DNA from: Luteolibacter sp.
GTDB taxonomy: Bacteria > Verrucomicrobiota > Verrucomicrobiia > Verrucomicrobiales > Akkermansiaceae
Direction: 5' to 3'
Length of the DNA: 43,886 bases
Assembly: GCA_021298895.1 (NCBI GenBank)
Contig: JAJTHK010000044.1
Location: 1-43,886, forward strand
Shown here: positions 233-5,484 of the stretch, in pieces
How the letters are laid out: the number at the start of each line of letters is the position of its first letter
How positions within the stretch are numbered: position 1 is the first letter of the stretch
Position numbers and translations under genes: made by a program
Notes under the pieces: generated by a model
The model's input: the letters and a program-made list of their open reading frames with translations, nothing else
Database searches by the model: none
Told to the model about the DNA's origin: nothing

Positions 233-1414
233 TTACGCCACAATGATCCGCGCACCCTCTGCAGGGCGGCTAGCAAAGATTTCCGGCGCAAAGCCAAAAG
301 CCTCCTCATAGGATTTCACCAGAGCGGCGGCGATGGAGTCCGCTTTTGCAGTTTCGCAAAGGGTGACCGTGGAACCGCCGAAGCCACCACCCGTCATGCG
401 CGCGCCGATTACACCGCCAGCGGTGCCGATTTCGGAAGCTGTGGCGACCAGGTGATCGAGCTCAGGGCAGGAAACTTCGAAATCGTCCCGAAGTGAAACG
501 TGACTTTCATACATGAGTCTGCCCAGCAGCGGAAAATCATTTTTTCTCAGCGCCTCCACAGCACCGATCGTGCGTGCGATTTCACCAACCACGTGACGAG
601 CGCGACGAAAAGTGACAGGATCCATCGAAGTCGCAGCAATCTCGAGATCGGCGGGGGTGACATCGCGCCAGCTCGGTTTCCCGATCGCAGCCAGACCATC
701 TTCCGTACTTTTCCGGCGCGCTGCGTAGACTCCATCGGAGAGCTCATGCGACACTTTGGTATTAGAAACGAGGAGGGTTAACGAAGGATCCGCAAACGGA
801 ACAAGTTCGGTATCTCCGGAGCGACAATCAATCAGGACGAGTTGCCCGTCTTTTCCAAACGAAGAGGCGAACTGATCCATGATTCCACATGGCACGCCGG
901 CGAAATCATGTTCGGCTTTCTGCGCGAGCAGGGCTTTTTCGCGAGTCTCAATCCTTGCACCCGTTAGCGTTTCCAACAAGGTCGCCGTCGCGCACTCAAG
1001 AGCGGCGGACGAAGAAAGCCCCGCACCGCCAGGCAGGCTGGAAACGATAAAGGCATCGAAACCGGGAACATCGATCCCGCGTTGACGGAAGCCCTGAACC
1101 ACACCGCGCAGATAGTTTGACCATTTTGGGTCTCCGATCTCCTGATCAGATCCGACAGAAAAAGTCGCGGGCTCATCATCGAAGGCGGTGGCGATTCTGG
1201 CTTCGGCCGTGCCGTTCGGTGCTGCAGCAATGACGACTGTCCGCTCAATGGCAAATGGCAACACGAAGCCATCGCAGTAATCAATGTGTTCCCCGATCAG
1301 GTTCACCCGCCCCGGTGCGGCGGCAACGAGGGTAGCATCGCTACCGAAATGCTCGCGGAAAATATCGCCAGCCGTCTGCGCCAAAGACTCAATCGGGGTG
1401 TTGGGTGAAAGCAT
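233..1414 (-). CDS. galK: Galactokinase
   Basis: 393 aa; GHMP kinase motifs APGRVNLIGEHIDYCDGFVLPFAI, LPGGAGLSSSAALE, ARMTGGGFGGSTV. Confidence 0.96.
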   Translation of the reverse strand: MLSPNTPIESLAQTAGDIFREHFGSDATLVAAAPGRVNLIGEHIDYCDGFVLPFAIERTVVIAAAPNGTAEARIATAFDDEPATFSVGSDQEIGDPKWSNYLRGVVQGFRQRGIDVPGFDAFIVSSLPGGAGLSSSAALECATATLLETLTGARIETREKALLAQKAEHDFAGVPCGIMDQFASSFGKDGQLVLIDCRSGDTELVPFADPSLTLLVSNTKVSHELSDGVYAARRKSTEDGLAAIGKPSWRDVTPADLEIAATSMDPVTFRRARHVVGEIARTIGAVEALRKNDFPLLGRLMYESHVSLRDDFEVSCPELDHLVATASEIGTAGGVIGARMTGGGFGGSTVTLCETAKADSIAAALVKSYEEAFGFAPEIFASRPAEGARIIVA

Positions 1415-1438
1415 GTGTCAAATCGAGGTGGTGATCAT

Positions 1439-3415
1439 TTACCAGAATACGGCGTATAAAGCGATGGTCAGGACGACAACGATACCACCCACAATTTTAG
1501 CTCCGAACGAAGTTGTGAGCTCGATTTGATCGTTCACAGGCAGCACGACGGGCTTCGCAAGAGGTTTAAGTATAGTGATCACGATACCTATGATAATGAC
1601 GATGAAGAAGCAAATCGCCATACGATCAAGGAACGCGATTTCTGAGGCATACCACAATTCGTTGGCGACGATCCATGGACCGATCAACCACTTGAATGCC
1701 GCGTAAGCAATGATGTTGGTAACGATTCCCACAACACCAAACCAACGTGGAGTTTTTGGAGAGAAGAAACCGAAAATGAATACGGTCAGAATACCCGGTG
1801 AGATGAAGCCCTGGAACTCTTGGATGTAGGAGAAAATCGATGAGAAGTTTGAAAGTGCCGGAGCAACAAGAGCTGCAAGAATCACAAAGATCACAACGAA
1901 GACCCTGCCAAGGAAAACGAGTCTAGCGGAATCCGTGACTCCAGTGAATTTCGCGTAAAGATCCATTGTCGCAATCGTTGATGCCGAGTTGAGCATCGAA
2001 GCCAATGAGCTGATGACCGCACCGCACAAAGCCGCGAGAACAAACCATGAGATGAGCGGGTAGGGCTTGATCAGGTTACGCACCAGCACAGGGAAAGCTG
2101 AATCGTAATCATAACCTTTAAGCATACCGACGGGCACGAGCGCTTTGTCCTTCTCAACGCCTGAGTTGGCCAAATCATTGATGACTTGAGCAGCTAGCTC
2201 CGGCGTGGCATCGGCTGGAATACTCACTTCTCCACCAAGGATTTTCGCATTGGTTTCCAAAACCTTCGCAGCTTCTGCTGGATAGAGCTTCACGTAATCG
2301 ACATCGACTTTATAAAGCGCTGATACGCCATGGGTTGCCAAAAGCTCTTTGTTGCCCTTGATCGCACCCTCGTTAAGGTCTTTGGAGAAAAGGTTGAACG
2401 CAAGGATTCCGGGAATCACCACCACGAATGGAATGATGAGCTTCAGGAAGGCGGCGAAAACAATACCTTTTTGACCTTCAGCGAGCGACTTGGAGCCCAA
2501 GGTGCGCTGGACGATATATTGGTTGAGTCCCCAATAGAAAAGATTCGGAATCCATAAGCCGATCAGTAAGGCGGTCCATGGGATATCACTATCTTCTTTG
2601 GGGCGCACCATATGCATTTTACCGCCCGATAGATTCGCACCATCGGAAACAACGGCTTCACCATCCTTACCATCGTTTAGCAACATCAGACGCTCCCATG
2701 CGCCAGCTTTCTCCAGATCTTGCACAGTTGCTGTGGAATTGATCACTTTGGTCTGAATGAGCTCGGATGCTGGGCGCTCACCCAATTCAGTCATCGCAAA
2801 CCACAACACCACCACGCCACCAAGAATAAGAGCAGCACCCCAGATAAGATCGGTCCATGCACATGCTTTCAATCCGCCGACGAAAACGTAGAGCGCCGAG
2901 AAAATGGCAATGAGCCAGCACATGGCGGTGAGGCTGTTCAGCACTGGCACGTCATTGTAATACTCAGAGATGAACTTAGCGCCGGAATAGATGACCGATG
3001 AAGTTGCAACAAAAACCAAGGTGATGATAGCCGGAATCGCCATGGCAAGGCGAGCGACGCCATTGAAACGGTATTCGAGGAACTCCGGAATCGTATAAAG
3101 GCCAGCTTTTAAAAAGCGCGGAAGGAACCAAAAAGCCACGAATACCAATGTCACAGCGGCGATCCATTCATAGGATGCGATTGCCATGCCAAGCCAGTTT
3201 GCAGATGAGCCCGACATACCCACGAATTGCTCGGTTGAGATGTTTGCGGCAATTAAAGAAAAACCAACCAACCACCAAGTGAGTCCGCGACCTGCGAGGA
3301 AATAATCCGAAGCTCCAGTCTCGCCAGATGTGACCTCGTCTCGGCTTTTCCAAATACCGAGTGCAATAACGCCAACGACCGCGACAATGAATAAAATGAT
3401 CTCAATGCTGTTCAT
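1439..3415 (-). CDS. Sodium/solute symporter (SSS family, SGLT-like), probable sugar/galactose cotransporter
   Basis: 658 aa; SSS-family features (DYFLAGRGLTWWLVGFSLIAANISTEQFVGMSG, WIPNLFYWGLNQYIVQRTLG, many TM helices); adjacent to galK on the same strand. Confidence 0.92.
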   Translation of the reverse strand: MNSIEIILFIVAVVGVIALGIWKSRDEVTSGETGASDYFLAGRGLTWWLVGFSLIAANISTEQFVGMSGSSANWLGMAIASYEWIAAVTLVFVAFWFLPRFLKAGLYTIPEFLEYRFNGVARLAMAIPAIITLVFVATSSVIYSGAKFISEYYNDVPVLNSLTAMCWLIAIFSALYVFVGGLKACAWTDLIWGAALILGGVVVLWFAMTELGERPASELIQTKVINSTATVQDLEKAGAWERLMLLNDGKDGEAVVSDGANLSGGKMHMVRPKEDSDIPWTALLIGLWIPNLFYWGLNQYIVQRTLGSKSLAEGQKGIVFAAFLKLIIPFVVVIPGILAFNLFSKDLNEGAIKGNKELLATHGVSALYKVDVDYVKLYPAEAAKVLETNAKILGGEVSIPADATPELAAQVINDLANSGVEKDKALVPVGMLKGYDYDSAFPVLVRNLIKPYPLISWFVLAALCGAVISSLASMLNSASTIATMDLYAKFTGVTDSARLVFLGRVFVVIFVILAALVAPALSNFSSIFSYIQEFQGFISPGILTVFIFGFFSPKTPRWFGVVGIVTNIIAYAAFKWLIGPWIVANELWYASEIAFLDRMAICFFIVIIIGIVITILKPLAKPVVLPVNDQIELTTSFGAKIVGGIVVVLTIALYAVFW

Positions 3416-3567
3416 GGTAAATTTTGTGGGTTTCTAAAGATGCGAAGACCTTTCTAAGCGCGAACCCCAGCCCGCAGAAAGCACAAATAAATGAAAACTC
3501 AAAAATTTAAAATTTAGCCTCGATCAACCCTATACACTCCCCGAAATCACCTTTCCCTCATCGTCGC

Positions 3568-3607
3568 CCTTACAATTATTGTCGTGGCCACGACAATAAT
3601 TGTAAGG
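3568..3607. promoter_or_regulatory. Perfect 40-bp palindrome containing two ACAATNATTGT dyads; candidate operator
   Basis: CCTTACAATTATTGTCGTGG / CCACGACAATAATTGTAAGG; divergent intergenic region between the symporter-galK operon and rpiB-glyA. Confidence 0.75.
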
Positions 3608-3716
3608 CTGGCAGCGTTAAAATACGTCTCTAGGCTGACAAGTGGAAGATTTTCCTGAAATTTCCGGTTTCCAAGCGAGACTTCCCAGCGTTGAATGCCG
3701 GTCTCTCAACAAGCTT

Positions 3717-5390
3717 ATGAGCCAATCCACCTACCGCATCGCCGTCGGCGCCGATCATGGCGCTTTTGAAATGAAAAATGCCATCGTCGCCCACCTACGC
3801 GCGGCGGGACATGAGGTCGAAGATTTCGGCACAAACGGTAAAGAGTCGGTGGACTATCCGGACTTCGCGAATCTTGTGGCGCGCAATGTTGCAGACAGCA
3901 CATTTGATTTCGGCATCCTTGCCTGCACTTCAGGAGTCGGCATGGCGATTGCCGCGAATCGCTTCCGTCACGTCCGCGCCGCCAATGTCCGTGATGTGGA
4001 AGAATCCGTCACCACCCGCCAGCACAACGATGCGAACATACTTTGTCTTTCGGGAAAATATATCGATATCGAGACCGCCAAGCAAATGGCCGATGCTTTC
4101 CTCGCAACGGAATTTGAAGGTGGACGCCACGAAGCACGCGTTTGCAAATCTTCCGGCAGCCGCATTGCGGTGACCGATCCGGCGCTTTATGAGGCCATCG
4201 TAGGCGAGGAGCACCGCCAACGGAATCACATCGAGTTGATCGCTTCGGAAAACTTCGCATCGCCAGCCGTGATGGAAGCGCAGGGATCTTTGCTCACCAA
4301 CAAATACGCTGAGGGATATCCGGGCAAGCGTTGGTATGGCGGCTGCGAATACGTCGACATCGTCGAAACTCTCGCCATCGAACGCGCCAAAGAACTTTTC
4401 GGAGCCGATCACGCCAACGTGCAGCCGCACTCCGGTTCACAAGCCAACACCGCGGTTTATTTCTCCGTGCTGAAGCCGGGTGATAAGATTTTCACCATGG
4501 ACCTCGCACACGGAGGGCACCTGACTCACGGTCACAAAGCAAACTTCTCCGGCCGTTTCTACGACGTCACTCACTACGGCGTTTCCCCAGATGACGAGCG
4601 CATCGACTATGATGAACTCGAAAAAACCGCGCGCGCACTCAATCCTGCGCTGATCACTGTTGGGGCATCAGCTTACTCGCGCGTCATCGACTTCGAACGC
4701 ATGGGCAAACTCGCTCGTGAGATTGGCGCTTACCTGTTTGTCGATATGGCACACATCGCCGGACTCGTCGCTGCCGGCGTTCATCCAAGTCCGGTCCCTC
4801 ACGCAGATTTCGTTACATCGACCACGCACAAATCCCTGCGCGGGCCTCGCGGCGGAATCATTCTTTGCAAAGAAGAGTTTGCGAAAAAAATCGACTCACA
4901 AGTTTTTCCAGGCATTCAAGGCGGCCCGCTGATGCATGTCATCGCTGCGAAAGCTGCCTGCTTTGGCGAGGCGCTTAAGCCGGAGTTCAAAACCTACTCG
5001 CAACAGGTCGTGAAAAACGCCCAAGCCATCTCGGCTCGTCTCACACATCACGGTTTCCGCATCTGCTCCGGAGGCACTGACAACCACGTCATGCTCGTCG
5101 ATCTCCGCAACAAAAACCTCAACGGCACCGACGCTTCGCACGCCCTCGATGAAGCCGGCATCACGGTCAATAAAAACGGCATCCCCTTCGACACCGGCAG
5201 CCCGATGAAACCATCCGGCATCCGCATCGGGACTCCAGCGGTTACGACTCGCGGCATGAAAGAAAAAGACGTCGAGCAAGTCGCGGATTTCATCGCAGAA
5301 GCTCTTGCGGATCATACGAACATCAAGAAGCTGCATGCGTTGCGGGATAGAGTGTTTGCGTTTAACAGAGCGTTTCCGTTGCCTTACTAA
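3717..5390 (+). CDS. Fused ribose-5-phosphate isomerase B / serine hydroxymethyltransferase
   Basis: Continuous ORF. N-terminal RpiB domain ([55 protein letters not shown]) followed by complete GlyA ([47 protein letters not shown]). Start set to MSQSTYR at 3717 instead of the ORF-track 3642. Confidence 0.93.
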
Positions 5391-5395
5391 AGGAC

Positions 5396-5484
5396 AGGAA
5401 CCGCGATTTCCAATCGCGACTGCAACCACCGAGTTGGCCGTAGACATTTCGCTGACGAGGTCGCGATTAGAAATCGCAGTTCCT
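5396..5484. repeat. REP/BIME-like inverted pair of small hairpins
   Basis: AGGAACCGCGATTTCCAATCGCGAC (5396-5420) is the inverted copy, with 2 mismatches, of GTCGCGATTAGAAATCGCAGTTCCT (5460-5484). Each arm is itself a hairpin GCGATT-NNN-AATCGC. Confidence 0.7.

Follow-up and report, generated by a model that had tools for sequence, protein, structure and literature searches.

The phenylacetate repressor PaaX has a Cas2-like core, the PaaX_M domain, and Cas2 is a subunit of the CRISPR integrase. In E. coli, PaaX acts as a repressor on its own promoter and recognises a 39-bp palindromic site, TGATTC(N27)GAATCA (PMC9493321). RAYT genes are flanked on both sides by their cognate REP palindrome (PMC2817692). 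The palindrome described here resembles the sites of both systems in part.

The window, i.e. the whole 43,886-nucleotide stretch of Luteolibacter sp. DNA analysed, carries CCTTACAATTATTGTCGTGGCCACGACAATAATTGTAAGG at positions 3568-3607. The sequence is self-complementary over all 40 bp, exactly in the place and to the extent given in the preliminary description, and its symmetry ends there, both adjacent bases (3567 and 3608) being C. The chance expectation of a perfect 40-bp palindrome in 44 kb is ∼4e-8 (4^-20 per position). Like the E. coli PaaX operator it is a long two-fold symmetric site (39 bp in E. coli, 36-40 bp here), but the two agree in length and symmetry alone, the half-site here being TTACAATnnTTGTC and not that of TGATTC(N27)GAATCA. 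The features of the locus are given below; G000 denotes the genome of the window, and G016 and G001 its relatives.

233-1414, minus strand: galK, on the same strand as the SSS symporter gene and after it
1442-3415, minus strand: sodium/solute symporter (SSS) gene, start facing the palindrome, followed by galK
3568-3607, no strand: perfect 40-bp palindrome, member of a dispersed family, core site 3572-3603
3570-3583, plus strand: left half-site TTACAATTATTGTC (family half-site TTACAATnnTTGTC), from the family comparison
3584-3591, no strand: centre GTGGCCAC, symmetric in the window copy but not in most G016 copies, which have GT..GT or AC..AC
3592-3605, minus strand: right half-site, with the sequence of the left one when read on the minus strand, from the family comparison
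3717-5390, plus strand: RpiB-GlyA fusion gene, start (ATG 3717) facing the palindrome

The divergent setting between symporter-galK and rpiB-glyA described earlier is confirmed by the starts at 3415 (minus) and 3717 (plus), and neither neighbouring gene ends at the palindrome. The rpiB-glyA pair is a single 557-aa ORF (3717-5390), in which RpiB is fused to GlyA (serine hydroxymethyltransferase). A consensus search for a sigma-70-like promoter near the palindrome found none. The stretch from ∼1400 to 5410 is 98.9% identical to that of G016 (L080), most other orthologous loci being ∼72-97% identical, which possibly reflects a recent transfer or recombination between both species.

Searching the genome and its relatives for the element, as had been suggested, revealed a multicopy dispersed family in G000, G016 and G001. 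With up to 3 mismatches allowed, a 32-bp pattern matched 5 places in G000, 8 in G016 and 1 in G001. A search of the genome set with a covariance model of 13 copies found ∼25, 25 and 8 places, respectively, and none in most other genomes; the site counts rest on these model and pattern searches. The exceptions are G040, a carrier of the gene discussed below, and two genomes in which that gene was not detected, namely G036, with two weak sites, and G019 (59% complete), with one.

Next to the family half-site TTACAATnnTTGTC comes a centre that reads xxGGCCxx, or in G000 often xCAGCTGx. It is the entire palindrome of 32-38 bp that is conserved as a unit; in its half-site, ACAATnnTTGTC, nn is free to vary, CT being commonest and TA occurring sometimes. 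The nested 11-bp dyads noticed in the window arise from TA alone. They are literally present, ACAATNATTGT occurring at 3572-3582 and 3593-3603 (two occurrences against 0.06 expected in the window), but they are not a family trait, as most copies read ACAATCTTTGTC without the inner dyad. The perfection of the window copy is likewise unusual; the two centre-adjacent positions are symmetric in 12-20% of G016 copies, as compared to 42-49% expected for independent arms.

Sites lie between divergent genes in 11 of the 21 classifiable cases in G000 and 11 of 20 in G016, as compared to 28% of intergenic bases in a 400-kb G016 sample, these counts being based on rough ORF calls and on paired and shared sites that are not independent. 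A dispersed repeat unrelated to promoters, which the preliminary description had set against its own reading, is thus found in its first half only: the copies are dispersed, but about half of the classifiable ones occupy divergent intergenic regions. The adjoining genes are mostly housekeeping genes, mixed and of no single pathway. They include glyA, alanine racemase and class I/II aminotransferase, and presumably, as named from sequence, the putative serS, trpE, hisG, aroB, carA, hemB and tsaD. A lean towards amino-acid and cofactor functions is visible but untested.

Conservation in place was monitored at 18 orthologous sites of G000 and G016, compared base by base. Identity is 97% over the 20 half-site bases and 63% at spacer and centre positions, as compared to 71% (an upper bound) for the adjoining 120-bp flanks and 36% for unrelated sequence. 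All half-site differences are changes of the outermost A/T to G/C, mostly on both sides, and at many G000 sites the centre has switched in place, GGCC having become CAGCTG. Retention of the half-site bases beside a drifting spacer and centre points to purifying selection in place. The pattern is that of protein-binding sites held in position, with neutral parts drifting and specificity shifting jointly, unlike that of an RNA hairpin or a decaying repeat.

Two orthologous comparisons stand apart. At L064 2199-2250 and L091 2247-2298, 10 bases beyond the core pair perfectly in both species though their sequences differ (ACCGCCACTT vs AAACACACGT); such a change of both arms is not explained by protein binding alone. 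Between L061 and L097, the 97% DNA identity of the two species ends at the palindrome, like a recombination junction.

On contig C190 of G000, a 261-aa ORF has two palindrome copies directly before it and one directly after. The arrangement is the same in G016, and in G001 one copy precedes the homologue. The C190 protein matches PaaX_M (PF20803, E 7.8e-18) and is the sole PaaX_M protein of G000, the domain being found as one gene per genome in 7 genomes. It is composed of a winged-helix and the Cas2-like PaaX_M core. E. coli PaaX, which shares this core, is the best PDB match of its AlphaFold2 model (pLDDT 82.8; 8a39, E 4.8e-9, query TM 0.56). However, the protein scores 61-65 bits for TIGR02277 (PaaX equivalog, phenylacetate repressor), below the cut-off of 264.6, and no paa genes are adjacent to its gene. 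The many dispersed sites also differ from the E. coli system, as does the palindrome on both sides of the gene; the flanks of E. coli paaX, a true PaaX, were checked and carry no such pair.

Of 79 related genomes, 16 have PaaX-like homologues, and the flanks of these carry near-perfect palindromes of ∼36 bp, the sequence of which varies by subfamily and matches before and after the gene. A GTDB genome scan yielded 46 Verrucomicrobiota-group loci. When at least 13 of 16 arm positions were to be paired within 250 bp of the gene, a palindrome was found upstream in 33 and downstream in 32 of these, as compared to 3 of 1312 random windows of the same loci. Between the upstream and the downstream copy, 30-38 of 40 bases are usually the same. 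Protein and palindrome co-diverge across loci, as evident from the correlation of their distances (Mantel r 0.52, 0/5000 permutations, 39 loci). The 24 most distant homologues, mostly of Patescibacteria, had been chosen as a negative control; in 20 of them the palindromes before and after the gene have ≥24 of 36 bases in common, as compared to 0.5% of mismatched loci.

Other carriers also contain dispersed copies of their own palindrome (10 in G035, 6 in G006, ∼20 in G060, ∼12 in G022, 10 in G070, 19 in G080, 12 in G082 and 2 in G079). Three gene-less control genomes gave 0 matches to a first pattern, and one match each to a second, this being the same non-palindromic stretch with 2-3 mismatches that is also present in carriers. 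In G018 (L126), a perfect palindrome of another subfamily stands beside a 48-residue remnant of a PaaX-like gene and appears to be a decayed unit. No paper joining PaaX with Verrucomicrobia palindromes, 'Cas2-like' repeats or transposition was found in the literature searched. The strongest new result, of which that literature has no earlier description, is that PaaX/Cas2-like genes of two bacterial groups are bracketed by matched palindromes.

The palindrome is probably the cognate recognition site of the PaaX-like protein, and the window copy would act on the divergent promoter region. A dimer of the protein would read the two inverted half-sites TTACAATnnTTGTC and repress its own gene through the bracketing sites. 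Occurrence of the same site just before the start and just after the stop suggests that the gene probably controls itself, although a site just after a stop codon is unusual for plain autoregulation. Through the dispersed copies the protein would control intergenic regions, most likely by repression, and at 3568-3607 the predicted target is the divergent region between symporter-galK and rpiB-glyA. Binding by the PaaX-like protein is an inference, and so are the signal and the sense in which it regulates. The initial view of a symmetric repressor-like site between divergent promoters is still the best reading, and the in-place conservation supports a bound site; its anatomy, partner and scale are different. 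In place of a local repressor, the likely partner is the PaaX-like protein of another contig, the gene of which has the same palindrome on both sides.

A REP-RAYT-like system, in which the PaaX/Cas2-like protein would mobilise the palindromes, the bracketed gene being the autonomous unit and the window copy a solo non-autonomous one, is conceivable yet doubtful. The bracketing of the gene by matched palindromes at most loci offers the same formal argument as for RAYTs (PMC2817692). The distribution of PaaX-like genes is patchy, the adjoining genes are seldom shared, the copy number ranges from 2 to 25, and some copies are paired, 42-75 bp apart. Information per site is ∼57 bits, a value inflated by the search filter; a regulator would need far less, ∼17 bits, to find 25 sites in 2.8 Mb, and the excess suggests that the sites are copied or have a further function. 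However, the purifying selection on half-site bases at orthologous places, with a drifting spacer and centre, is unexpected for a decaying selfish copy, and the PaaX-like protein has no nuclease-type transposase domain. Viral contigs contained neither a PaaX-like relative nor the palindrome, and the plasmids searched gave a single weak PaaX-family match, in Rhodococcus. In an empty-site comparison of 11 loci not shared by G000 and G016, orthologous regions were obtained for about six; no clean empty site was seen, the occupied and empty intergenic regions having diverged too far to be aligned.

The likeness to REP/RAYT lies in multicopy extragenic palindromes of 20-40 bp and a cognate gene bracketed by two copies. 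The bracketed protein is, however, PaaX-like and devoid of an HUH/Y1 domain, the copies are fewer, and the GTAG or CGTC head tetranucleotide of REPs is absent from the family consensus. The 2.76-Mb G000 has 12 Y1_Tnp (RAYT-like) matches; 8 of these loci (L019-L026) were examined for a Y1/RAYT partner, and none has the palindrome.

In G001, 7 of the 8 palindromes are located at the centre of a repeated element (L100-L106) with the terminal inverted repeat CAGACATCCTGATC. Its complete copies are 195-197 bp long, one copy is without the right end, and most full copies have a matching 5-bp target duplication (aagtt, aattt, aggtt, aaatt). In G001 at least, the palindrome was spread by an ordinary MITE carrying the site. 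This likeness to MITEs is seen in G001 alone; G000 copies have unrelated flanks, with no terminal repeats or target duplications beyond the palindrome. An undescribed mobile class, in which a Cas2-fold PaaX-like protein and not an HUH transposase would spread and maintain palindromes of 36-40 bp, is unlikely. Its bracketed gene would be the autonomous form, common to Verrucomicrobiota and Patescibacteria, and the solo copies would have been co-opted as its regulatory sites.

A role in chromosome organisation, as for matS or Noc sites, in which the PaaX-like protein would be a nucleoid-associated factor, is improbable. The ∼25 long palindromic intergenic sites per genome and the single cognate protein would suit such a role, but the only closed carrier genome tested, a complete 4.4-Mb chromosome, gave just 2 exact-pattern matches, and many relatives are without the palindrome/PaaX-like system.

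An RNA hairpin or bidirectional terminator, the latter named as an alternative in the preliminary description, is very improbable in spite of the stable single-strand fold of the window palindrome (−32.6 kcal mol−1, z −6.9) and of outer arms that extend the pairing with differing sequences in some copies. The GC-rich stem with T-run of an intrinsic terminator is missing, as no T-run follows the stem of the window element and no terminator was found; an Rfam search returned no family at threshold and nothing near it. Both flanking genes start at the palindrome, the centre pairs form less often in G016 than expected (see above), and the conserved feature is identity, not pairing. A local operator of a sugar-responsive repressor, binding as two dimers to the nested ACAATNATTGT dyads at 3572 and 3593 in the divergent region beside galK and the symporter, is hardly credible and is largely refuted by the family comparison, in which the whole palindrome is the unit, the dyad-making nn is free, the inner dyad is missing from most copies, and the ∼25 dispersed sites adjoin unrelated, mostly housekeeping genes.

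Recognition by the PaaX-like protein is the preferred reading of the palindrome. The bracket ties the Cas2-like regulators, a large and little understood family, to defined and co-evolving DNA sites in two bacterial groups, Patescibacteria among them, and the pairing predicts binding sites of dozens of uncharacterised proteins straight from sequence. If the unit also moves, the REP-RAYT lifestyle would have arisen a second time, independently, on a fold common with Cas2.
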